A stretch of DNA of 10,861 bases from Betaproteobacteria bacterium (lineage in GTDB: Bacteria > Pseudomonadota > Gammaproteobacteria > Burkholderiales > Usitatibacteraceae). Below are positions 1-10,736 of the stretch, one piece after another; the stretch's first letter is position 1, and each line of letters opens with the position of its first letter. The DNA lies in NCBI GenBank assembly GCA_012274175.1, contig JAAOZZ010000329.1:1-10861 (forward strand). The letters run 5' to 3'. The notes beneath the pieces were generated by a model. The model was not told the origin of the DNA, did not search any database, and saw only the letters and a list, made by a program, of their open reading frames with translations. The translations under genes and the position numbers were made by a program.

Positions 1-110
1 ACTGAGGCGCGCGCTTCGCCGGGACGGGCGCCGAACAGCCTATGGCGAGCGGCAAACCTCCGGCCGCGATTCCGATCGAACCCTCCATGGAATCGAAAAA
101 GGAAGCCGCC

Positions 111-482
111 ATGGGCGCATTCTCCCCCTGCCTCGCGATCACCGCGCTCGCCGTGGCGCTTTCCGCCACCCTCGCCCACGGGAAGTCGCCGGCGCCCGCC
201 TTGCCCGTCCCGCCCGCGACGCGCGACGCCGCCCCCTTCGACGCCGGCACCGGATGGTTCGGCAACGAAACGATCGCGCCCCGCGAGCGCCCTGCCGGCA
301 CGAGCGCGGCTACCGCGGCTTCGACGCGTACGCCGTTGCCCAACGAAATCACGCGCTCGGAGCTGGACCACGAAGCCCGCGACCGGGCGCGGCGCGACAC
401 CCCGCGGGTGATCGGCATCGCGCCGCGCACGGATGCCGATCGCACCGACGAGATGCCCGACGATCCGATCATCCGGTATTGA
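111..482 (+). CDS. Small secreted protein of unknown function
   Basis: I do not recognise this 123-residue protein. The first 24 residues form a hydrophobic stretch (CLAITALAVALSATLAHG) that looks like a Sec signal peptide, with cleavage after the Ala-His-Gly region, so an exported periplasmic product is likely. The mature part is rich in Pro, Ala, Arg and Asp, has no cysteine and no evident domain, and is probably disordered. It ends in the acidic-then-aromatic tail PDDPIIRY. I chose the ATG at 111 because AAGGA (99-103) lies 7 bases upstream. The in-frame ATG at 87 has a weaker ribosome site but would add two lysines, giving a more typical charged signal-peptide start, so it remains possible. 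An in-frame ATG at 42 is less likely. The gene ends just before a strong stem-loop and appears to be transcribed apart from the downstream operon. Confidence 0.6.
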   Translation: MGAFSPCLAITALAVALSATLAHGKSPAPALPVPPATRDAAPFDAGTGWFGNETIAPRERPAGTSAATAASTRTPLPNEITRSELDHEARDRARRDTPRVIGIAPRTDADRTDEMPDDPIIRY

Positions 483-561: not shown

Positions 562-578
562 ATGTCCTACCCGGACAT
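562..578. promoter_or_regulatory. Inverted repeat, candidate operator
   Basis: ATGTCC (562-567) and GGACAT (573-578) form a perfect 6-base inverted repeat around TACCC. There is no T-run after it, so it is unlikely to be a terminator. It overlaps the -35 region of the candidate promoter at 572-601, the right place for a repressor or activator dimer to control the carrier-protein operon. The binding protein is unknown and no regulator gene is adjacent on the operon side. Confidence 0.35.
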
Positions 579-601
579 CGAGTTCCGGTCCTTGAAATAA
601 T
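572..601 (+). promoter_or_regulatory. Candidate promoter of the carrier-protein operon
   Basis: An extended -10 is visible as TG at 593-594, one base, then AATAAT at 596-601 (5 of 6 to TATAAT). Eighteen bases upstream sits CGGACA (572-577), which matches TTGACA at 4 of 6 positions. This is the only AT-rich patch in the gap and it points towards the operon, leaving a leader of roughly 90 bases before the ATG at 698. The rest of the leader (602-697) shows no clear ribosome site or riboswitch fold. This is prediction by eye only. Confidence 0.4.
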
Positions 602-697: not shown

Positions 698-964
698 ATG
701 TACTCCGAGCAGATCCGTCCTCTCGTCGCCCAGCACGCCCGCCTGCGCATGGCCGTGGACGAGCTCACCGACGAGAGCGACCTCTACCGAGCCGGGCTCA
801 CGTCGCTGTCCACGGTGAACCTGATGCTCGCGCTCGAGGAGCATTTCGACGTGGAATTCCTCGACCGCATGCTGGGACGCCAAACGTTCGGATCCATCCG
901 CTGCCTCGCCGAGGCGATCGCCGAGTTGCGGGGCGCGACGGATCGCGACCGGATCGCGGGGTGA
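698..964 (+). CDS. Stand-alone acyl/peptidyl carrier protein
   Basis: This 88-residue protein has the size and four-helix pattern of a free-standing carrier protein. The phosphopantetheine site is GLTSLSTVNLMLALEE, with Ser36 as the predicted attachment serine. The usual Asp of the DSL motif is replaced by Thr (TSL). The following helix (MLALEEHFDVEF) is typical of the helix II to III region of carrier proteins. In the family, a phosphopantetheinyl transferase adds the arm and acyl or aminoacyl groups ride on it as thioesters. No such transferase is seen here, so a general host enzyme must act. The amino acid:[carrier protein] ligase two genes downstream is the natural loading partner. Start choice: the ATG at 698 gives the usual carrier-protein length but has no clear Shine-Dalgarno. 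The in-frame ATG at 662 would add 12 Pro-rich residues and has GGAG only 2 bases upstream. It is the first gene of the six-gene run. Confidence 0.88.
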   Translation: MYSEQIRPLVAQHARLRMAVDELTDESDLYRAGLTSLSTVNLMLALEEHFDVEFLDRMLGRQTFGSIRCLAEAIAELRGATDRDRIAG

Positions 965-968
965 GGCG

Positions 969-2162
969 ATGAACGTCGCGCGCCGAGCGATCCTCCCGGC
1001 CCCGCCCGACTCGCGCGCGCTGCTCGAGCGCGTGCACGCCATCGGCCGCGAGGCCGTGGCGCCCCATGCGGACGCGGTCGACCGCGACGCGCGCTTTCCC
1101 CACGAAGCGTTCGCGGCCCTGAAGGCGGAGAAGCTGCTCGGGGCCTACGTGCCGGCCGAATGCGGCGGAATGGGCCTCGACGTGTCCCAGGTGGCGCAAG
1201 TGTGCGAGGCGCTCGGGCACCACTGCGCGTCCACGGCGATGATCTTCGCTATGCACCAGATCCAGGTGGCGTGCATCGTGCACCACGCGCTCGACGCACC
1301 TTTCTTCCGCGACTACGCGCGCGAGCTCGTCGCTCGCCAGTACCTGCTCGCCTCCGCCACCACGGAGCTGGGCGTCGGGGGCGACGCGCGCTCGAGCGTG
1401 TGCGCGGTGAAGGTGGAGGACGGGCGCTTCACGCTGGAAAAGCAGGCGCCCGTCATCTCCTACGGCGCGACGGCCGACGCGATCCTGGTCACGTGCCGCA
1501 GGTCGGAGGACGCGGCGAGGAGCGACCAGGTGCAGGTGCTCGTGCGCAGGCAGGACTGCGCGCTGCGGCAGCTCTCGCAGTGGGACACGCTCGGGTTCCG
1601 CGGCACCTGCAGCCCCGGCTTCGAGGTGAAGAGCGCCGGGGACGCCGCCCAGATATTGCCCGCGCCCTACGCGGAGATCCACGCCCGCACGCAGCATCCG
1701 TTCGCCCACGTGGTATGGGCATCGCTTTGGGTGGGCCTCGCCACGGATGCGCTGAACCGCGCGCGCGGCGCAGTGCGCTCCGAGGCGCGCAAGACGCCGG
1801 GCACGATCCCCCTGTCCGCCACGCGCCTCGCGGAGGCCGACCTCGTGCTCGACACGATGCGCGGCACGCTTGCTTCCACGCTCGCGGAATACGCGCGCCT
1901 GCTCGCGCAGGCAGACCCGGATGCGTTCGGGGACTACCGGTTCGTGGTCCGCATGAACAACCTCAAGCTCACCGCCTCGCAGCTCGTGGTCGACGTGGTG
2001 GGGCGCGCCATGGTGATCTGCGGCATCGCGGGGTATCGCAACGACTCCAAGCTTTCCCTGGGCCGGCACCTGCGCGACGCGACCGGCGCGGGCCTCATGG
2101 TCAACAACGATCGCATCCTCGGCCAGAACGCCACGATGCAGGTCGCGCTGCGGGAGGGCTGA
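969..2162 (+). CDS. Acyl-CoA dehydrogenase-like flavoprotein
   Basis: The 397-residue length and domain order fit the acyl-CoA dehydrogenase superfamily. There is an N-terminal helical domain (about 15-125) with the hallmark YVPAECGGMGLD (60-71), a middle beta domain (about 126-235) with a modified acyl/FAD motif TTELGVGGD in place of TEPxAGSD and the conserved TLGFRGTCS (207-215), and a C-terminal helical domain with CGIAGYRND and LGRHLRDA. Near the end, where typical dehydrogenases carry the catalytic Glu in a YEGT/YGGT motif, this protein reads LMVNNDRI with no Glu, so normal CoA-ester dehydrogenation is uncertain. The gene starts 4 bases after the carrier-protein stop and is followed at once by the ligase gene. 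By analogy with FAD enzymes that oxidise aminoacyl groups on carrier proteins (such as the prolyl-carrier oxidases of pyrrole pathways), I infer that its substrate may be carrier-bound. That is inference. It is soluble, with no signal peptide. Confidence 0.85.
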   Translation: MNVARRAILPAPPDSRALLERVHAIGREAVAPHADAVDRDARFPHEAFAALKAEKLLGAYVPAECGGMGLDVSQVAQVCEALGHHCASTAMIFAMHQIQVACIVHHALDAPFFRDYARELVARQYLLASATTELGVGGDARSSVCAVKVEDGRFTLEKQAPVISYGATADAILVTCRRSEDAARSDQVQVLVRRQDCALRQLSQWDTLGFRGTCSPGFEVKSAGDAAQILPAPYAEIHARTQHPFAHVVWASLWVGLATDALNRARGAVRSEARKTPGTIPLSATRLAEADLVLDTMRGTLASTLAEYARLLAQADPDAFGDYRFVVRMNNLKLTASQLVVDVVGRAMVICGIAGYRNDSKLSLGRHLRDATGAGLMVNNDRILGQNATMQVALREG

Positions 2163-2167
2163 GGGCG

Positions 2168-3121
2168 ATGTGCGTCCAGCCCGCGGAGCATGGTGACCTT
2201 GCGCTGCCGACGGGCGACGCATACCGGGAATACCTGGGCGAGCTCGTCGCCGAAGGCCTGCTGGTGCCCATGGGCGTGCGCGGCGTGTACGGACGGGGGC
2301 GCGACTTCGAGCGCGTCATCGTGCGCTTCGACGAGTACGTCGCCCGTGCGAGCGCCGAGCTCGCTCCCGAGGTGCTGCGCTTCCCGCCGCTCTTCAATCG
2401 CAGCGACTACCGGCGCATCGACCACATCCACAATTTTCCCGACCTCATGGGATCGGTCCACACGTTCACCGGGGGCGAGCTCGAGCATCGCGAGATGCTC
2501 GGAAAATTCGAGCGCGGGGAGGACTGGAGCCGCAACCTCGCGCCGGCCGAAGTCATGATGACGCCCGCGATCTGCTACCCGCTCTATCCCACCCTGGCGG
2601 GCGGCACGCTGCCCGAGGGCGGGCGGCGCGTGGACCTGCAGGGTTTCGCCTTCCGCCACGAGCCCAGCGACGATCCCGCCCGCATGCAGATCTTCCGGAT
2701 GCACGAGGTCGTGCGGCTGGGCTTGCCCGGGGAGGCCCTCGAGCACCGCGACTACTGGCTCGCCCGCGGCGGCGAGCTGCTGCGCGCGGTCGGGCTGCAT
2801 GCCACGCCGGTCGTGGCCAACGACCCGTTCTTCGGCCGCGGCGGCAAGGTGCAGAAGGCGATGCAGCGCGAGCAGAGCCTCAAGTACGAATTCGTGGTGC
2901 CGATCTGCTCCGCCGAGAAGCCCACGGCCGTGGGCTCGTGCAACTACCACCTCGACCACTTCGGCGCGGCGTTCGACATCCGTAGCCACGACGGCAGCAC
3001 GGCCCACAGCGCGTGCGTGGGCTTCGGGCTGGAGCGCGTCGCACTCGCGCTGTTCCGGGCCCACGGACTCGCGATCGGCGCCTGGCCCCGGGACGTCCGC
3101 CATGTGCTGGCCCTCGACTGA
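2168..3121 (+). CDS. Amino acid:[carrier protein] ligase, SerRS-like
   Basis: This 317-residue protein resembles only the catalytic core of class II seryl-tRNA synthetase and lacks the coiled-coil tRNA-binding arm. Motif 2 is visible as FRHEPSDDPARMQIFRMHE (162-180) and motif 3 as GFGLERVALALF, with the ATP-binding Arg290. Cys136 (TPAICYPLYP), Glu180 (RMHEVVRLG) and Cys258 (VGSCNYHLDHFG) fit the three zinc ligands known from methanogen-type SerRS and from the characterised Bradyrhizobium and Agrobacterium amino acid:[carrier protein] ligases. Those enzymes form an aminoacyl-adenylate with ATP and transfer the amino acid (glycine or alanine in the studied cases) to the phosphopantetheine of a small carrier protein, not to tRNA. 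The carrier gene at 698 is the expected partner. The amino acid used here cannot be read from sequence by eye. GGAGG at 2153-2157 serves as the ribosome site, and the 3' end overlaps the next gene by 20 bases. Confidence 0.9.
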   Translation: MCVQPAEHGDLALPTGDAYREYLGELVAEGLLVPMGVRGVYGRGRDFERVIVRFDEYVARASAELAPEVLRFPPLFNRSDYRRIDHIHNFPDLMGSVHTFTGGELEHREMLGKFERGEDWSRNLAPAEVMMTPAICYPLYPTLAGGTLPEGGRRVDLQGFAFRHEPSDDPARMQIFRMHEVVRLGLPGEALEHRDYWLARGGELLRAVGLHATPVVANDPFFGRGGKVQKAMQREQSLKYEFVVPICSAEKPTAVGSCNYHLDHFGAAFDIRSHDGSTAHSACVGFGLERVALALFRAHGLAIGAWPRDVRHVLALD

Positions 3122-4103
3122 GCCGCGGCGCCTGAGGATCGCCGCGCTCGACCCCGCCACCTATCGCCGCCATGCGATCCACGGCGAGGGCCGCACCTGG
3201 GCGGAGACCAATTGCTACACGGACCTGCTGGTGGAGCTCGCCCACGGCCTGGGACACGAGCCGGTCGCGGCGCTGCCCTTCACGCTCGCGATCGACTTCG
3301 AGGGCGACCAGTGGACCTTCTTCAAGCCGCCCGCGGCGGACCTCTACGAGCTGTACGGATTCGACCTGCAGGAGCTCGCGATCTGGCGGCCCCTGGTGGA
3401 GCACGTGGTCGAGCAGCTCGAGGCGGGGCGCCCGGTGCTGGTGGAGCTGGACGCGTGGTTCCTTCCCGACACCGCCGGCACCGCCTATCGCCGCGAGCAC
3501 AGCAAGACGACCGTGGGCATCAACGAGATCGACGCGCAGGGGCGGCGGCTGGGCTACTTCCACAATGCGGGCTACTTCGCCCTCGAGGGCGACGATTTCC
3601 GCGAGCTCTTCCAGCTGGACGGTCCCGCCCACGAGCGCGTGCTGCCGCCCTACGTCGAGTACGTGAAATCGCGCCCCGGGTTCGCCGCCCCGCGCGGTGC
3701 GGCACTCGCCGAGGCCTCGCTCGCGCTGCTGCGCCGCCATGTCGCCCGCATGCCGCGGGACAATCCCTTCGCGCGCTTCAAGGCGCGCTTCGCCGCCGAC
3801 CTGGAATGGCTCGTGCAGTCCGACCTCGAGCACTTCCACGCGTACTCGTTCGCGAACCTGCGCCAGTACGGAGCGTGCTTCGAGCTGGGCGAGACGTACC
3901 TGCGTTGGCTGGGCGGGCACGGCGTGGGCGGCCTCGAAGCCGCTGCCGATGCGCTGCGGGACATCGCCTCGACCGCCAAGGCATTCCAGTTCCAGCTCGC
4001 CCGCGCGATGGCGCGCCGCAAGTCCCTCGATCTCGCGCCGCTCGACGCCATGGGCGCCCGATGGGAGCTCGCGGCTGGCGCCCTGCGCGAGCGCTTCGGG
4101 TGA
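3102..4103 (+). CDS. DUF1839 protein, possible papain-like acyltransferase
   Basis: The 333-residue product matches my recollection of the DUF1839 family, which is repeatedly found beside amino acid:[carrier protein] ligases and has no proven function. The N-terminal half has a papain-like layout. Cys38 in ETNCYTDLL starts a helix, the strand VLVELDAWFLPD comes next, His133 follows in REHSKTTVGINEID, and Asn155 lies in YFHNAGYF. This order (Cys, the D-x-x-x-LP strand, His, then Asn) recalls the N-terminal domain of BtrH, the butirosin enzyme that transfers an aminoacyl group from a carrier protein to an aminoglycoside. I therefore infer a role in moving or releasing the aminoacyl group. The C-terminal half is mostly helical and unassigned. 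The ATG at 3102 lies inside the end of the ligase gene (20-base overlap), with GGGAC 8 bases upstream, and suggests translational coupling. Family call likely; catalytic role speculative. Confidence 0.78.
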   Translation: MCWPSTEPRRLRIAALDPATYRRHAIHGEGRTWAETNCYTDLLVELAHGLGHEPVAALPFTLAIDFEGDQWTFFKPPAADLYELYGFDLQELAIWRPLVEHVVEQLEAGRPVLVELDAWFLPDTAGTAYRREHSKTTVGINEIDAQGRRLGYFHNAGYFALEGDDFRELFQLDGPAHERVLPPYVEYVKSRPGFAAPRGAALAEASLALLRRHVARMPRDNPFARFKARFAADLEWLVQSDLEHFHAYSFANLRQYGACFELGETYLRWLGGHGVGGLEAAADALRDIASTAKAFQFQLARAMARRKSLDLAPLDAMGARWELAAGALRERFG

Positions 4104-4113
4104 GGAGCCCGCG

Positions 4114-6666
4114 ATGACCGGACTGCCCTCCGGCACCGTGCTCGGCACCGGACGCATCGCGTGGCTGCACGAAGGCTGGGAGCTCGCAAGCACGCCCGCC
4201 GGCGCCTGCGCGAGCCCTGACGGGCTTGCGCAGGCCGCGCTCGAGTGGCGCCCCGCGAAAGTCCCGGGAACCGTGGCCTCCAGCGTGCACGGAGACCTCG
4301 ATGCGCCGGGTCCCTACGACGCCGACGACTGGTGGTACCGGATGCGCTTCGCGACGCCGAAGGAAGCCCCGGGCACGCTCTATCGCCTGCGCTTCGAGGG
4401 CCTGGCCACGCTCGCCCAGGTGTGGCTCAACGGCCAGGCGCTGCTGTCCTCGCGCAACATGTTCGTCGCGCAACGGGTCGACGTGACGGGGATCCTGCGC
4501 GCCGATGGGGAGAACGAGCTCACGATCCGATTCGCTTCCCTCGACGCGGCCATGGCGCGCAAGCGGGCGCGGCCGCGCTGGCGCACCGCGCTCGTGGCGC
4601 GGCAGGAGCTGCGCTGGTTTCGCACCACGCTGCTCGGGCGCATCCCCGGATGGACACCGGCAATCGCGCCCGTGGGCCCGTGGGCTCCCGTCGCGCTCGA
4701 GAGCGTGGGGCGGGTCGAGCTCACCGCGCTCGACGTGCAGGCGCGCGCCGAAGGATCCACGGGACGCCTTCGCATCGAGGCGGTGGTCGCGCTGCACGGC
4801 GCCCGCGCGCTCGAGGAGGCGAGGCTGCGCCTGGGCGATCGCACCCACGTGCTCCAGGTCGAGCCCGGGGCGTCGGCGGCGATCCACGGCGAGCTCGCCA
4901 TCGCGAACGCTCCGCTGTGGTGGCCCCATACCCACGGCACGCCCCACCTCGTCGCCTGCCGGCTGGAGCTTCGCATCGACGGCGAGTGGCTGAACGTGGA
5001 CTGCGCGAGCGTGGGTTTCAGGGAAATCGTCCTCGACCAGGCGGGCGAGCGGATGCGGTTCATCGTGAACGGCGTGCCAGTGTTCTGCCGCGGCGCGTGC
5101 TGGACCCCGATCGACATCCTCGCCCTGAGGGGCGAGCCCGCGGCGTTGCGCGCGGCGCTGGAAGCGGCGCGCGACGCGGGCGTCAACATGCTGCGGGTGG
5201 GCGGCACCATGGCCTACGAGTCCGAGGACTTCTACCGCCTGTGCGACGAGCTGGGCATCCTCGTGTGGCAGGATTTCATGTTCGCCAACATGGACTACCC
5301 GGTGGCCGACCGCGAGTTCCGCTCCGAGGTCGAGGCCGAAGTGCGCCACCAGCTGGGTCGCCTGCAACGGCATCCCTGCATCGCCGCCTACTGCGGCGGA
5401 AGCGAGATCGCGCAGCAGGCGGCGATGCTAGGGCTGCCCGCCGAGCAGTGGAACAACGAGTTCTTCCGCGAGGCGATCGCGCGCCACTGCGCCGCGTTGC
5501 ACGCCGGCGTCCCGTATTTCCCCTCGACGCCGTGTGGCGGGGCGCTCCCGTTCCACGTGGGCGCGGGCATCTCCCACTACTACGGCGTGGGCGCCTACCG
5601 CCGGCCCGTGAGCGACGCGAAGCTCGCGCGCGTGAAGTTCACCACGGAATGCCTCGGCTTCTCCAACGTGCCCGACGTGGAGACCATCACGCGGGCTTTC
5701 GGCACGCCCACGCCCGCGCCCCACCATCCCCTCTGGAAGGCGCGCCAGCCGCGAGATGCCGGCGCCGGCTGGGACTTCGAGGACATCCGCGACCATTACG
5801 TGAAGGAGCTCTTCGCCTGCGACCCGGTGGCGTTGCGCAGCCAGGACCTCGCGCGCTACTACGCGGTCTCCCGCGCCGTCACGGGCGAGGTGATGCGGCG
5901 CGTCTTCGCCGAGTGGAGGTCCCCCGCGAGCGACTGCGCCGGCGCGCTCGTGTGGTTCCTGCGCGACTTCGTGCCCGGGGCGGGATGGGGCATCGTCGAC
6001 GCCCTGGGGCGGCCCAAGGCGGCGCTGTGGCAGCTCAAGCGCGCGTGGGTGCCCCGGTCGGTGCACCTCACGGACGAGGGGCTCGACGGCCTCGCCGTGC
6101 ACGTGATCAACGAATCCCCGCGGCCGCTCGAGGCGCTGCTCGAGCTGCGGATGCTCCGGGCGGGAGGTGGCGAGGCCGATGGCGCGACGCAAGCGGTCTC
6201 CGTCGCGCCCCACGGCGCGATCTCGCTCAACGCGGACGGCATGCTGGGCTACTTCTCCGACAGCACCGCGGCCTATCGCTTCGGGCCGCCGCGCCACCAG
6301 GTGATCGCCGTGTGCCTCAAGGACATGGACGGAGAGGTGCTCGGGGAAGATTTCCACTTCCCGGTCGGCATGGACCTTCCCGTGATGCAGGCCGCGGCGG
6401 TGGAGCTCGCGGCGCGATGGCGAGCCGACGGCAAGGTCGAGGCGACGATCCGCTGCGACGAATTCCTGCAGGCCGTGGTGTTCACATGCGAGGACTTCGC
6501 GCCCGACGACAACCATTTCCACCTGGCGCCGGGACGCACGAAGACGATCGTCTTCACGCCGCGGGAGCACGACGGGTCGCAGTTCAAGGCGCACGTGGAG
6601 GCGCTCAATCTCGCGCCAAGCCTCACGGTGCGCGCGCAACGTCCGGCGGAAGGGACCGGCGGATGA
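4114..6666 (+). CDS. GH2 beta-mannosidase-like glycoside hydrolase
   Basis: At 850 residues this has the full-length architecture of GH2 beta-mannosidases: a sugar-binding jelly-roll domain (about 1-190, with AQVWLNGQ), an Ig-like domain ending near APLWWPHTHGTPHL (about 265-285), a TIM-barrel (about 300-600), and beta-rich C-terminal domains. The likely acid/base is Glu431 in YCGGSEIAQQ and the likely nucleophile is Glu512 in FTTECLGFSNVP. The residue before the acid/base is Ser431-1, whereas GH2 enzymes normally have Asn there (CGNNE), so specificity or mechanism may differ from true beta-mannosidases. There is no signal peptide, so it should act in the cytoplasm, which argues against a role in digesting external mannan. 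GAGGAG at 4102-4107 is a good ribosome site 6 bases before the ATG and overlaps the upstream stop. Its 3' end overlaps the next gene by ATGA. In this operon it may trim or transfer a sugar on the product. Confidence 0.85.
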   Translation: MTGLPSGTVLGTGRIAWLHEGWELASTPAGACASPDGLAQAALEWRPAKVPGTVASSVHGDLDAPGPYDADDWWYRMRFATPKEAPGTLYRLRFEGLATLAQVWLNGQALLSSRNMFVAQRVDVTGILRADGENELTIRFASLDAAMARKRARPRWRTALVARQELRWFRTTLLGRIPGWTPAIAPVGPWAPVALESVGRVELTALDVQARAEGSTGRLRIEAVVALHGARALEEARLRLGDRTHVLQVEPGASAAIHGELAIANAPLWWPHTHGTPHLVACRLELRIDGEWLNVDCASVGFREIVLDQAGERMRFIVNGVPVFCRGACWTPIDILALRGEPAALRAALEAARDAGVNMLRVGGTMAYESEDFYRLCDELGILVWQDFMFANMDYPVADREFRSEVEAEVRHQLGRLQRHPCIAAYCGGSEIAQQAAMLGLPAEQWNNEFFREAIARHCAALHAGVPYFPSTPCGGALPFHVGAGISHYYGVGAYRRPVSDAKLARVKFTTECLGFSNVPDVETITRAFGTPTPAPHHPLWKARQPRDAGAGWDFEDIRDHYVKELFACDPVALRSQDLARYYAVSRAVTGEVMRRVFAEWRSPASDCAGALVWFLRDFVPGAGWGIVDALGRPKAALWQLKRAWVPRSVHLTDEGLDGLAVHVINESPRPLEALLELRMLRAGGGEADGATQAVSVAPHGAISLNADGMLGYFSDSTAAYRFGPPRHQVIAVCLKDMDGEVLGEDFHFPVGMDLPVMQAAAVELAARWRADGKVEATIRCDEFLQAVVFTCEDFAPDDNHFHLAPGRTKTIVFTPREHDGSQFKAHVEALNLAPSLTVRAQRPAEGTGG

Positions 6667-8465
6667 AGCGCGATGACGTGCTCTTCGAGCCCTGCGCGCT
6701 GGCGCAGGGCTCGAGGGTCGAAAGGCGCGCGCTATTCCTCGATGGCGCGAGCCGGCCGATCTTCGCCTGGTACCACGAAGCGCCGGCCGCGGCACCCCGG
6801 GACTGCGTGGCCGTTGTCTGTCCGCCGGTAGGCTCGGAGTACACGCGCTCGCACCGTTCGCTGCGCCACCTCGCCGATCGACTCGCCCAGGCCGGCATTC
6901 CGTGCTTGCGCTTCGACTACGACGGCACCGGTGACTCGCCCGGCGGCGACCTCGATCCGGGACGCGTCGAGGCGTGGCAGGCGAGCATCCGCACGGCGAT
7001 CGGCCATGCCCGCAGGCTCAGCGGGCGCGCCCGTGCGTGCCTCGTCGGAGTGCGCTTCGGGGCGACGCTTGCCGCGCTCGCAGCGGCCGAAACGCCCGTG
7101 GAGCACCTGGTGCTCTGGAACCCGTGCGTGAAGGGGCGGGGATACGTGCGCGAGCTGCGGGCAATCGCCCTCGCGGCCGAAGACGGCGATCGCTCCATCG
7201 AGGGCGCGGCCGAAGGCGCCATCGAAAGCGCGGGCTTCATGACGAGCGCCGAGACCCTCGCTGCCATGGGCGCGGTGGACCTCCTCGCGTGCGCCCCGCG
7301 CGTGAGCGGCCGCGCGCTGGTTATCCACCGCGACGACCTCGTCGCCGATGGCGCCCTCGCGGCGCACCTGGGCGCGCTCGGCATCGCCACCGACGGCGCC
7401 CGCCTGCCGGGGTGGGCCGGGATGATGGCCGAGCACCAGTTCACCGTCGTGCCCGAGGCGGCGATCGCCACGCTGGTCGATTGGGCCGCGATGCATGCCG
7501 GGCCAGCGCTCGATTCGCACGGATCCGGAGCGCAGCCGGTCCTCCGAGAGGAGACCTCCACCGTGGCCGTGTCGTCGAACGTGGAAGAGGCCATCTGCCG
7601 CTTCGGCGAGGAGGGGCACCTTTTCGGAATCCTGAGCCGCCCGCAGTCGCCTTCGCGGCACCCGGCCGTCGTCCTGTGCAACGCGGGCGCCGCACACCAC
7701 GTGGGCCCGCACCGGCTCTACGTGACGCTCGCGCGCGAGCTCGCCGCGCGGGGCTTCCCGTGCCTGCGGTTCGACCTCGAGAGCCTGGGCGACAGCGTGA
7801 ACCGCGCGCCGGGCCGCGAAAACTATCCCTACCCGCGCACGGCCACGCAGGACGCGCGCCGGGCGGTGGAGCACCTGCGCTCGCTCGGCCACGGCAGGCT
7901 CGTCGTGATGGGCCTGTGCTCGGGCGCCCATACCGCGTTCCATGCGGGGCTCGAGATCGAGGATGCGGCCATCGAGGAGATCGTCCTGATCAACCCGATG
8001 CAGTTCCACTGGGTGGACGGCATGAGCCTCGACACGTCGCGCCGGTTCGAGGACATGCTGCAATACCGCCGGTCCCTGCGCGATCCCCGGCGCTGGCTCA
8101 AGCTGCTGCGGGGGGACGTGAACTTCCGCCGCATGCTCGAGCTCGCGCGCTCCTATCCGCGCACGGTGGCGCGGACCTACCGGGACGCGCTCTGGGAGTT
8201 GCTGGCGCCCGCGGGAGGACCGCGCCTGTCCCGGGACCTTAAGCGCCTGTTCGCGATGGGGCGGCGCGTGACGCTCTTCGTCTCCGAAGGCGACCCGGGG
8301 CGCGACGTGCTGATGGCCCATGCGAAGGTGACTGCCACCCGCGCCCTGCGCAGCGGCCGCATCCACCTGGAGAGGATCCCTCGCGCCGACCACACGTTTT
8401 CCCGGTGGAACGCCCGGAGGAAGCTGCTCGACCGCCTCCTGGCGCGCCTCGACCGCACCGCATGA
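6663..8465 (+). CDS. Tandem alpha/beta hydrolase fusion protein
   Basis: This 600-residue protein contains two alpha/beta hydrolase domains joined near residue 280-310. Domain 1 has the usual PCLRFDYDGTGDSPG strand-loop, but its nucleophile elbow is GVRFGA with Arg131 where Ser should be. Asp (HRDDLV) and His (AEHQFT) remain, so it looks catalytically impaired or repurposed. Domain 2 has the matching PCLRFDLESLGDS, an elbow GLCSGA with Cys419, Asp544 (SEGDPGRD) and His577 (ADHTFSR), giving a Cys-His-Asp triad like that of dienelactone hydrolase. Possible roles are thioester or ester cleavage or acyl transfer. Similar hydrolases appear with exosortase/PEP-CTERM regions, but nothing else here points to that system. 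There is no signal peptide, so it is likely cytoplasmic. The start ATGA overlaps the stop of the GH2 gene, showing translational coupling, and it is the last gene of the operon. Confidence 0.82.
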   Translation: MKRDDVLFEPCALAQGSRVERRALFLDGASRPIFAWYHEAPAAAPRDCVAVVCPPVGSEYTRSHRSLRHLADRLAQAGIPCLRFDYDGTGDSPGGDLDPGRVEAWQASIRTAIGHARRLSGRARACLVGVRFGATLAALAAAETPVEHLVLWNPCVKGRGYVRELRAIALAAEDGDRSIEGAAEGAIESAGFMTSAETLAAMGAVDLLACAPRVSGRALVIHRDDLVADGALAAHLGALGIATDGARLPGWAGMMAEHQFTVVPEAAIATLVDWAAMHAGPALDSHGSGAQPVLREETSTVAVSSNVEEAICRFGEEGHLFGILSRPQSPSRHPAVVLCNAGAAHHVGPHRLYVTLARELAARGFPCLRFDLESLGDSVNRAPGRENYPYPRTATQDARRAVEHLRSLGHGRLVVMGLCSGAHTAFHAGLEIEDAAIEEIVLINPMQFHWVDGMSLDTSRRFEDMLQYRRSLRDPRRWLKLLRGDVNFRRMLELARSYPRTVARTYRDALWELLAPAGGPRLSRDLKRLFAMGRRVTLFVSEGDPGRDVLMAHAKVTATRALRSGRIHLERIPRADHTFSRWNARRKLLDRLLARLDRTA

Positions 8466-8474
8466 AAGGCTTCC

Positions 8475-8492
8475 GGGCTCTTGCCCGAGCCC
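8475..8492 (+). terminator. Short stem-loop after the operon
   Basis: GGGCTC (8475-8480) pairs with GAGCCC (8487-8492) over a 6-base loop, starting 10 bases after the last operon stop codon. No T-run follows, so alone it would be a weak terminator. It may stabilise the mRNA end or add to the stronger stem just downstream. Confidence 0.35.
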
Positions 8493-8504
8493 CTCGCCTA
8501 GCCC

Positions 8505-8534
8505 CGCGGCCGCCCGAAAGCGGCCGCGATTCCT
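8505..8534 (+). terminator. Operon terminator stem-loop
   Basis: CGCGGCCGC (8505-8513) and GCGGCCGCG (8520-8528) form a perfect 9-base all-GC stem with loop CCGAAA, followed by the moderately T-rich ATTCCTTTC. It lies between two convergent genes, after the hydrolase gene on the plus strand and just beyond the stop of the minus-strand lipoprotein gene. It may serve both, although the minus side lacks a T-run. Confidence 0.6.
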
Positions 8535-8538
8535 TTCG

Positions 8539-9834
8539 TCAGCGGTCCCGCACCAGGCGCAGCTGGGGCGCGGACGCGGTTCCCACCAGATACACGGTGT
8601 AGACCGCTCCCGCATCGATCTCCACGGGTGTGAGCGTCGCGAGCACGGTGATTCCTCCCGGGGTCGCGAAGGTGAACGTGTAGGTGAGGGAGGGCGCGAA
8701 CGTGTAGTAGCTCGACGCGCTCTTGTACGCGAGGCCGCTCACCTGGCTCGCGAAATTCACCAGCACGTCGGCGCCGGGGGCGCTCGCGAGCGCATTGGCG
8801 AAGCGGATCTTCGCGAACCCGGTCGCGGGAAGCGAGTTGTCGTCGGCGAACGTGACGAGCTGCGCCTGGGCGAGGGAATTCACGGCGACCGCGGTGTAAT
8901 CGCGGGCGGGATCCACCTGCAGCGGGAGCGTGGCGACGTTCGTGCCCGGCACGTTGGACGCCTCGAGCTGGAGCGTGCGTGCCCCGGTGGCGAGGGAAAC
9001 GTAGCTCGAGCTGCCGCCGAACGGCACGTTGGAGAGCAGCATCGTCCCGTCGGCCTTGAAGTTGAAGCCGTTCGAGTCGGGCACGGCGTTCACCGCCTTG
9101 ATGCGCCCGCTCGGGTTGGCCAGCAGCGTTCCCGTACCGCCCTGGCCCTGCAGGAGCAGCAGCGCATTGGCGAGCTTTCCGCCGCCGGAGGGGACCACCA
9201 CGAGGGAATAGATCGAGCCCGCGGCGAAGGTCTGGGGAGCGGACTGGAACAGGACGTCCTTGGTGCCCGTCACCGTGAGCACGATGCGGTAGCTTCCCGC
9301 CGCGCTCTCCGAGTAGCCCGAGACCGACGTGAAGGAGATCGAGCCGATCGTGGCGGGCGAGTTCGAGATGTCCGCGGCCTGGGTCACGTAGACGTCGACG
9401 GGACCCGAGTCGGCGGACGCGCCCACCGCGCGGATCTTGAAGTTTCCGGAGGCCGGCGCCGTATCGGGGCTCACGATGTCGTCGGTGAGCTGCAGGGCCG
9501 ACATGGCGCTGCGCGTGCCGTAGATCACGAGCGTGTAGTTCGCCCCGCTGCCGAAGTTGAGGTTCTTGTCGAAGAAGACCGCCTGGTTGCTGGCGGAGCG
9601 CAGCGTGACTTCGCGGCCCCCGGAGGAGAACTCGCTGAAGGGCGAGGTCGCGCCGAAGGCGAGGCCCCCGAATTTCACGTCGTTGTCCACCAGCACGTCG
9701 AGGGGCTCGGCGTCGATCACCGCGTTCACGGCCCGCATGTCGGTGGAATTCTGGGTGTGTCCGCCGTGGCAACCCGCCACGAGCGTGAGCAAGGCCGCGA
9801 GGGCGGCCAGACGCCAGTTCTTGTTCTTGAACAC
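8539..9834 (-). CDS. DUF4397-repeat lipoprotein
   Basis: The 431-residue product begins MFKNKNWRLAALAALLTLVAGC, a lipoprotein signal with lipobox LVAGC and Cys22 as the lipidated residue, so it should be membrane-anchored in the envelope. The rest is beta-rich and low in cysteine. It holds four repeats of about 100 residues whose starts are recognisable as MRAVNAVIDAEPLDVLVD, FKIRAVGASADSGPVDVYV, GRIKAVNAVPDSNGFNFKA and AKIRFANALASAPGADVLV. This pattern fits DUF4397 domains, which are Ig-like surface modules of unknown function. The start is a GTG at 9834: AAGGAGT (minus strand, 9847-9841) lies 6 bases before it, and the resulting N-terminus is an ideal lipoprotein signal. The upstream in-frame ATG codons at 9930 and 9870 would lengthen the signal and place the Shine-Dalgarno inside the gene. 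The gene is convergent to the operon and divergent from the response regulator, so it is a separate unit. Confidence 0.82.
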   Translation of the reverse strand: MFKNKNWRLAALAALLTLVAGCHGGHTQNSTDMRAVNAVIDAEPLDVLVDNDVKFGGLAFGATSPFSEFSSGGREVTLRSASNQAVFFDKNLNFGSGANYTLVIYGTRSAMSALQLTDDIVSPDTAPASGNFKIRAVGASADSGPVDVYVTQAADISNSPATIGSISFTSVSGYSESAAGSYRIVLTVTGTKDVLFQSAPQTFAAGSIYSLVVVPSGGGKLANALLLLQGQGGTGTLLANPSGRIKAVNAVPDSNGFNFKADGTMLLSNVPFGGSSSYVSLATGARTLQLEASNVPGTNVATLPLQVDPARDYTAVAVNSLAQAQLVTFADDNSLPATGFAKIRFANALASAPGADVLVNFASQVSGLAYKSASSYYTFAPSLTYTFTFATPGGITVLATLTPVEIDAGAVYTVYLVGTASAPQLRLVRDR

Positions 9835-9840
9835 GAAAGG

Positions 9841-9847
9841 ACTCCTT
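9841..9847 (-). promoter_or_regulatory. Shine-Dalgarno that decides the GTG start
   Basis: On the minus strand AAGGAGT reads at 9847-9841, followed by 6 bases and a GTG (9834-9832). It is nearly the full anti-16S complement and is the strongest ribosome site in the window. It is the main reason for choosing GTG over the upstream in-frame ATGs of the lipoprotein gene. Confidence 0.75.
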
Positions 9848-9902
9848 GCCAAGGTTGGATTCACGCGCATGCTAGCAATTCCAGCGCCGGAGGGGGCATC
9901 GA

Positions 9903-9937
9903 TTGCAACGGAAGTCGCGCTTCCGGCCACGTTGCAA
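9903..9937. promoter_or_regulatory. Nested inverted repeat in divergent region
   Basis: Outer arms TTGCAACG (9903-9910) and CGTTGCAA (9930-9937) match perfectly over a 19-base gap. Inside them CGGAAG (9909-9914) and CTTCCG (9920-9925) form a second inverted repeat around TCGCG. The structure lies between the lipoprotein and the response regulator genes and just upstream of a TACAAT -10-like hexamer at 9946-9951. It may be an operator, for example for autoregulation, or a cruciform-prone element. It is not a typical terminator, although AAAATTT follows the outer right arm. Confidence 0.4.
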
Positions 9938-9995: not shown

Positions 9996-10736
9996 ATGCC
10001 GAAGCATATCCTCGTCGTCGACGACGACCTAGACATCCGCACCCTACTCGCCGAGTACCTCGAACGCAACGGCTTCCGCGTTAGCGTGCTCCCTGACGGC
10101 CGCGAGCTCGCCCGCACCCTCGAGGAGCGCTCGGTGGACCTCGTGGTGCTCGACCTCATGATGCCGGGCCCGGACGGGCTGGCGCTCTGCCGCAACCTGC
10201 GCGCGCGCAGCCGCATTCCCGTGCTTATGCTCTCGGCCCGCGGCGAGGACGTCGACCGCATCGTGGGCCTGGAGATGGGCGCGGACGACTACCTCGCGAA
10301 ACCCTTCCACCCGCGCGAGCTGCTCGCGCGCATCCGGGCCATCCTCGCGCGCGCGCAGCCCGAGGAATCCGCCACCGAGGTGGCCGAATACCGCTTCGAG
10401 GGATTCCGCATGGACCTGCTGCGCCGCGCCCTCACCCGGCCCGACGGCACGCGGGTCGCGCTCTCGGGGGCGGAGTTCGAACTGCTGGGCATCTTCCTCG
10501 CCCGGCCCAACCGGGTGCTCACGCGCGACCTGCTGGTGGAGCTCACCCAGGGGCGCGAGGCTCCGGCCTACGACCGCAGCATCGACGTGCGGGTGAGCCG
10601 CCTGCGCCAGGCGCTGGGAGACAAGGGCGAGGCCCGGCTGCTGCAGACGGTTTACGGAGAGGGTTACGTCCTGAGCGCGCAGGTCGACGCGGTCGGCGCG
10701 GCGCGCCGGCGCGGCGGCGCCCCGGCCGGCCGGTGA
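9996..10736 (+). CDS. OmpR-family response regulator
   Basis: This 246-residue protein has a receiver domain (about 1-120) followed by an OmpR/PhoB-type winged-helix DNA-binding domain (about 132-232). The receiver shows the acidic pocket Asp10/Asp11 (LVVDDD), the phospho-acceptor Asp53 (VVLDLMMPGPDG), Ser80 in the switch position (LMLSARGE) and Lys102 (YLAKPFHP). The effector domain ends with the typical RSIDVRVSRLRQALGD recognition helix and a VYGEGYVL wing. The family binds direct repeats at target promoters after phosphorylation by a partner kinase, here the overlapping sensor gene. AAGGA (9988-9992) lies close, 3 bases before the ATG. The last 18 residues are an Ala/Arg/Gly-rich tail past the fold. 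The subfamily and regulated genes cannot be told from the sequence, and a link to the carrier-protein operon is not shown. Confidence 0.95.
   Translation: MPKHILVVDDDLDIRTLLAEYLERNGFRVSVLPDGRELARTLEERSVDLVVLDLMMPGPDGLALCRNLRARSRIPVLMLSARGEDVDRIVGLEMGADDYLAKPFHPRELLARIRAILARAQPEESATEVAEYRFEGFRMDLLRRALTRPDGTRVALSGAEFELLGIFLARPNRVLTRDLLVELTQGREAPAYDRSIDVRVSRLRQALGDKGEARLLQTVYGEGYVLSAQVDAVGAARRRGGAPAGR

Follow-up and report, generated by a model that had tools for sequence, protein, structure and literature searches.

The stretch of DNA analysed here (the window) is an entire 10,861-base contig of a draft genome (3.14 Mb in 479 contigs, 80.6% complete) and carries a six-gene operon built around an amino acid:[carrier protein] ligase. 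The locus is real and highly conserved, and its function is predicted. We propose, with a probability of about 0.6, that the operon works in the cytosol, where an amino acid is oxidised on the carrier and then joined through an amide bond to an acceptor with an amino group; this acceptor would most likely be an amino sugar belonging to a surface-glycan precursor. The operon type and nearly the same reading were already published in 2010 (PMC2922099, in its note in proof), and the window is a new instance. New here are a CcbD-like fold predicted for the DUF1839 protein, a kinship of the operon's hydrolase with exosortase-A hydrolases, and a count-based link to glycan genes.

The six genes lie on the forward strand with gaps of 4, 5 and 10 bases and overlaps of 20 and 4 bases. 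An earlier note made from the letters of the window had given the same spacing, and our coordinates reproduced every figure exactly; its six family assignments were also borne out, since family models matched above their curated cut-offs (given second in the following brackets). The carrier protein (698 to 964; 88 residues) matched PP-binding (PF00550; 32.2 bits, 20.8) and NF005480 (102.7, 72), and the acyl-CoA dehydrogenase-fold flavoprotein (969 to 2162; 397 residues) matched Acyl-CoA_dh_N (65.2, 22.9). The ligase (2168 to 3121; 317 residues) was recognised by the amino acid--[ACP] ligase model NF005479 (417.2, 357) and the protein encoded at 3102 to 4103 by DUF1839 (414.7, 22.5). When started at the ATG at 3102, the latter has 333 residues, the commonest length among 120 homologues listed (68/120), two of which are labelled Usitatibacter and one Rhizobacter. 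A GH2 glycosidase of the beta-mannosidase type (4114 to 6666; 850 residues; Glyco_hydro_2_N2, 92.0, 27) and a fused, double alpha/beta hydrolase (6663 to 8465; 600 residues; Hydrolase_4, 65.6, 27; Abhydrolase_1, 37.0, 25.8) complete the set. ANL adenylation and condensation Pfam families were absent from the six proteins at E 0.1, in agreement with the note's remark that no nonribosomal peptide synthetase (NRPS) module is present.

We searched 250 genomes of the order and 398 of the phylum, neither sample being picked by ligase similarity. The ligase scored above cut-off in 7 genomes of the order sample (10 at E 0.001) and DUF1839 in 6; all 6 were among the 7, with DUF1839 adjoining the ligase each time. 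The corresponding numbers in the phylum sample were 28 (44 at E 0.001) and 16, all 16 lying within the 28 and adjacent to the ligase by coordinates. Chance clustering of the two genes was rejected (hypergeometric p 2e-11 and 2e-21). These p values overstate independence because the sampled genomes are related; chance is excluded because the gene order is kept in distant relatives. Thus, the families that the note had grouped together are not rare companions but co-occur strongly, far beyond chance.

For counts of all partners, we named the best 80 of at least 578 candidate loci ranked by similarity to a seven-sequence ligase alignment; co-occurrence among them is enriched because they were chosen by ligase similarity. 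Together with L018, L020, L021 and L024 they make 84 counted loci, which leave out the window, L019 (no ligase), and L022 and L023 (on the same contigs as L026 and L034). Because close relatives remain among the 84, counts are also given for 37 groups clustered at 75% ligase identity. Gene starts in these loci came from a purpose-made codon-usage caller, and contigs that end within the operon were scored as misses. The carrier was present in 81 loci (34 groups), the flavoprotein in 83 (36), DUF1839 in 81 (34), GH2 in 74 (32) and the double hydrolase in 55 (26), and all six genes were found in 55 loci (26 groups). In all 72 loci that could be measured, the ligase and DUF1839 genes shared one strand and lay -60 to 150 bases apart. 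In L021, L049 and L050 the ligase is accompanied by one or none of the partners; the Sorangium homologue at L050:10001-10888 had 0 of 5 partners inside the fetched 10-kb flanks.

The loci come from seven phyla (Pseudomonadota, Planctomycetota, Myxococcota, Acidobacteriota, Chloroflexota, Gemmatimonadota and Abditibacteriota), across which the gene order recurs. The Chloroflexota, Gemmatimonadota and Abditibacteriota are represented by one record each, and the Chloroflexota locus has its carrier on the other strand. Pairwise distances between families correlate (Pearson 0.43-0.86). In a ligase tree with an arbitrary root, many of whose rows are metagenome bins, the window falls within a set of 27 rows (support 100/100) in which Pseudomonadota stand among Planctomycetota, Acidobacteriota, Myxococcota and Abditibacteriota. 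In the order sample, the ligase is missing from two genomes of the same genus and three of the same family. The mixed-phylum set and this absence in close kin suggest that transfer of the operon between lineages is likely. In Phyllobacterium sp. 628 the operon sits on a plasmid (L080), and one further ligase match (G439:C23:92354-93265) contains a stop codon and is possibly a decayed copy.

The predicted phosphopantetheine site of the carrier, Ser36 in a GLTS motif, was conserved in 35 of 35 aligned rows, and AcpS genes adjoin the carrier gene in seven loci from four ligase groups. Residues 27-316 of the ligase align to residues 43-332 of Bll0957, a class II aminoacyl-tRNA synthetase-like core without the tRNA-binding domain. 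Its C136, E180 and C283, a metal-type Cys, Glu, Cys pattern that we take to be the zinc ligands, were invariant across 38 rows.

A minimal form of the locus bears on the role of the flavoprotein. We fetched seven of the phylum-sample loci that have the ligase without DUF1839 (L139-L145). The ligase adjoins the flavoprotein gene in 7/7, and a carrier gene is present on the opposite strand in 6/7; DUF1839, GH2 and the double hydrolase were found in 0/7 within 14-18 kb. DUF1839 matches of up to 136 bits in these loci were rejected as an artefact of untrimmed profile rows, as they overlap the ligase; a profile from trimmed sequences gave no match there, and PF08893 gave none in those genomes. In 16 further phylum genomes the ligase matches were below cut-off, and three such loci (L147-L149) showed no partners except one weak carrier match. 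A ligase-flavoprotein-carrier set without glycan genes suggests that loading and modification are the more general core and that the flavoprotein probably acts on the aminoacyl-carrier, not on a glycan.

The flavoprotein was modelled with a predicted local distance difference test score of 92.0 and has an ordinary acyl-CoA dehydrogenase fold; in a fold search, ordinary dehydrogenases ranked together with nitrososynthases. The best solved match by single sequence was the nitrososynthase DnmZ (59.8 bits), which belongs with KijD3 to a class that oxidises amines at nitrogen, and by profile it was 5gj7 (131.8 bits), followed by butyryl-CoA dehydrogenase (120.3) and DnmZ (112.2). At the position of the usual catalytic Glu, which belongs to a C-terminal YEG sequence and was placed by this sequence and the aligned RDA motif, the protein has Val378; the 36 aligned rows contain V (20), I (15) or P (1) and no Glu. 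His247 was conserved in 37/37 rows of one alignment and nearly invariant (at least 90%) in another. Dehydrogenases with the catalytic base elsewhere exist. Within the amide-forming model we lean slightly towards oxygenation over dehydrogenation, because the usual base is missing and the flavoprotein is paired with ligase and carrier where glycan genes are absent. This is the weakest chemical step of the model.

The confident model of the DUF1839 protein gave clear full-length fold matches only to CcbD, the AziU2-U3 complex and CtaG. As described in PMC12945683 and PMC4351081, CcbD transfers a carrier-bound amino acid to an amino sugar via a Cys thioester and accepts varied amino-containing substrates in vitro. 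PMC10318531 assigns DUF1839 a papain-like fold with a C(T/S)H triad; CcbD, CtaG and AziU3 do not appear in its text. Conservation of Cys38 (34/35 rows), Thr137 (33/34) and His154 (34/34) follows the C(T/S)H order. K293 (30/34), Q296 (29/33) and R301 (33/33) near the C terminus would fall on R316, Q319 and R324 of CcbD, whose basic C-terminal helix docks the carrier, if a C-terminal offset of 23 (333 to 356) is applied; the numbering of the entries may differ. The papain-like fold, taken with the degradative families to which GH2 and the hydrolases belong, could also indicate a peptidase or amidase that removes a bond in a degradative operon; we consider this very improbable. We instead predict from the model that DUF1839 is a CcbD-like aminoacyl-carrier:amine acyltransferase. 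Two genomes (G557 and G158) have a second DUF1839 copy: one (L146:12235-13197) follows the operon on the other strand and outscores the operon copy, and the other is in L019, near a contig end.

Beta-mannosidases are closest to the GH2 protein, whose Glu431 (30/31 rows) and Glu512 (31/31), the catalytic pair as assigned by GH2 motifs, are conserved. Its start is without signal-peptide-like character, and such a start was found in 0 of 76 relatives by a hydrophobicity heuristic, suggesting that the enzyme is probably cytosolic. GH2 is present in 74 of 81 DUF1839 loci; the two genes share a strand in all 71 loci that could be measured, 58 of which keep them within 150 bases of each other. This close association, with the catalytic Glu intact, argues against an acceptor amine on a protein, lipid or polyamine, with GH2 serving a neighbouring function. 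Such an acceptor would suit the breadth of CcbD towards amino-containing substrates in vitro and the occurrence of the minimal set without GH2, and we judge it improbable.

The amino sugar acceptor of our proposal is supported by some of the flanks. Bac_transf (undecaprenyl-phosphate sugar transferase) genes were found in the fetched flanks of 23 loci, representing 7 of 37 ligase groups, compared with an expectation of about 1% (17 copies in 7 genomes, 32.6 Mb; binomial p 1e-7 assuming independent groups). This search used 12 of 14 Burkholderia seeds at E 1e-15 and may miss remote copies. In G113, from the same family as the window's genome, the genome's sole Bac_transf gene sits immediately 5' of the carrier gene on the same strand; Bac_transf likewise lies directly upstream of the carrier in G158 and G557, and UDP-sugar dehydrogenase and epimerase genes do so in Rhizobacter Root1238. 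Among 171 flank open reading frames scanned with Pfam (175 listed), glycan families were among the largest classes, with only 3-4 members each. TPR, response-regulator and Crp-type families were about as numerous, which rules out a glycan neighbourhood everywhere.

The same chemistry could serve a diffusible small metabolite, such as an aminoglycoside or amide carrying an aminoacyl group, oxidised or not, with GH2 as a self-protection or maturation glycosidase. The patchiness of the operon and its spread across phyla would fit this, as would an MFS gene after the operon in Thiomonas and, beyond the operon in Agrobacterium, a gene for an ABC transporter. CtaG and AziU3 act in antibiotic pathways. 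So does CcbD (PMC12945683, PMC4351081). However, the flanks show no conspicuous resistance or scaffold family; polysaccharide genes are among the classes that recur there, as are regulators and TPR proteins, and exosortase-A loci have the hydrolase pair too. We regard a small metabolite as unlikely, though not as a negligible alternative.

The double hydrolase resembles a fusion of exosortase-A hydrolases 2 (N half) and 1 (C half). The N half has a GVRFG elbow with Arg131 at the place of the nucleophile (24/27 rows), and the C half has a GLCSG elbow with Cys419 (27/27) and His577. The window's protein scored 147.2 bits against hydrolase 1 (TIGR03100; cut-off 168.45) and 107.2 against hydrolase 2 (TIGR03101; 202.75), both below cut-off; 26 of 26 double hydrolases scanned matched both models. 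Its gene runs opposite to GH2 in 15 loci and in the same direction in 40. Of 100 order genomes, 15 have a genuine hydrolase 1 that scored above cut-off. A pattern too strict to catch all elbows picked out GLR in 7 of these 15 exosortase-A loci and GLC in 2; the L134 pair has both. When 7 of the 15 loci were enlarged, a carrier-like gene was present in 7/7, adjoining the hydrolases in 6; two of these carriers scored 20.1 and 21.9 bits with Pfam (cut-off 20.8). A TIGR03098-like AMP ligase was found in 5/7. Hydrolases 2 and 1 are separate genes in 6/7 and, as in the window, fused in one, L132, where the fusion (7473-9212, reverse strand) lies beside a carrier-like gene. An exosortase occurs in 4 of 7 ligase-bearing genomes, the window's own included, on a different contig each time and never beside the operon.

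The proposed pathway would run as follows. AcpS, whose gene adjoins the carrier gene in some relatives, would place phosphopantetheine on Ser36. The ligase would activate an amino acid with ATP and load it onto the carrier without tRNA, as others report for a homologue. The flavoprotein would then oxidise the aminoacyl group while it sits on the carrier, with oxygenation more likely than dehydrogenation, and DUF1839 would take the acyl group onto Cys38 and pass it to the acceptor amine in a CcbD-like ping-pong reaction predicted from the fold. GH2 might trim or remodel a glycoside, and the double hydrolase might clear stalled or wrong thioesters or esters.

Several observations weigh against this pathway. 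DUF1839 is absent from 12 of the 28 ligase-bearing genomes of the phylum sample, and the AcpS family (PF01648) had no match in the window's genome, itself incomplete. No Bac_transf gene was found in the fetched flanks of 30 of 37 groups (among the 87 loci L018-L104, 22 span less than 18 kb), and the window shows no glycan gene except GH2. A DUF1839 profile run against PDB sequences to E 1 retrieved no CcbD, CtaG or AziU chain, and sequence searches against solved structures gave nothing relevant. The triad is Cys-Thr-His in DUF1839 and Cys-His-Glu in CcbD; we therefore predict that DUF1839 works like CcbD/LmbD and do not count it as a member. AziU3 is not known to make an ordinary amide despite the same fold, so fold is not function. 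The earlier note had proposed activation, on-carrier modification and transfer to an acceptor, each of which is backed by family, conservation or fold evidence. Its description of the set as a complete pathway is not supported in that form, as acceptor and precursor lie elsewhere, and the missing AcpS match and DUF1839-less genomes also speak against it.

A wider proposal, which we put forward tentatively and at somewhat less than even odds, is that DUF1839 founds a Cys-Thr-His branch of CcbD-fold condensing enzymes and that operons of this kind, found in loci of seven phyla, attach an amino acid, loaded without tRNA and oxidised on its carrier, to the amino sugars of surface polysaccharides; exosortase-A loci would follow a parallel route that shares the hydrolase pair and draws on another class of ligase. 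The predicted DUF1839 fold and the exosortase-A kinship go beyond the earlier note, and the fold makes the reaction easy to examine in vitro, as it names a catalytic residue and a class of acceptors.

Upstream of the operon, a promoter-like site (CGGACA-18-AATAAT, 572 to 601, forward strand; a consensus match only) ends 97 bases 5' of the first start codon (1 versus a mean of 0.0 in shuffles). A terminator-like hairpin (8505 to 8528, forward strand; a pattern match only) lies directly 3' of the last gene (1 versus a mean of 0.1). Searches of the window for known RNA families and tRNAs found none. A short open reading frame upstream of the carrier gene (42-482, forward strand) has a signal-peptide-like start and no Pfam match and may encode a small secreted protein. 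Convergent with the operon is a gene for a DUF4397 protein (8539-9930, reverse strand; 191.8 bits over four stretches) with a lipoprotein-like N terminus. An OmpR/PhoB-type response regulator gene (9996-10736, forward strand) lies close to the contig end; no kinase was seen in the window.

The closest described system is the Agrobacterium Atu2574 neighbourhood, for which Iyer and Aravind in 2010 predicted that an amino acid is ligated to an amino sugar of the cell surface (PMC2922099). As in the window, it comprises a ligase, carrier, redox enzyme, conserved uncharacterised protein and glycosidase; unlike the present analysis, their note in proof assigns the conserved protein no fold, makes no connection to exosortase and gives no counts. 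Judging by how the genes are ordered in Agrobacterium loci L101 and L103, we infer that Atu2574 is a DUF1839 protein. In PMC11941606, Atu2573 appears only as a hub gene. Bll0957 (PDB 3mey) of Bradyrhizobium belongs to the same ligase family, and its gene adjoins that of the flavoprotein Bll0958 by locus tag. In the Bradyrhizobium diazoefficiens phaR mutant, transcripts of both were reported to be up 3.0-fold and the proteins up too (PMC10888616), which is published co-expression of that pair and not of the window operon. Unlike the window, the minimal-type loci L139-L145 are without DUF1839, GH2 and double hydrolase. CcbD/LmbD of lincosamide biosynthesis (PDB 7yn1, 9dks) shares the predicted fold of DUF1839 over the full length, but that system (PMC12945683, PMC4351081) uses a stand-alone NRPS-type adenylation domain where the window has a ligase resembling aminoacyl-tRNA synthetases. 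The exosortase-A hydrolases 1 and 2 have in common with the double hydrolase their order, the GLR and GLC elbows and an adjoining carrier, whereas the ligase of those loci is of the ANL class (TIGR03098) and that of the window is class II aminoacyl-tRNA synthetase-like. DltABCD also loads an amino acid on a small carrier and then onto a surface polymer; its ANL ligase, ester to teichoic acid and membrane acyltransferase have no counterpart in the window. The shared hydrolases suggest that a single type of surface-glycan modification is supplied by two ligase classes with no relation to each other.
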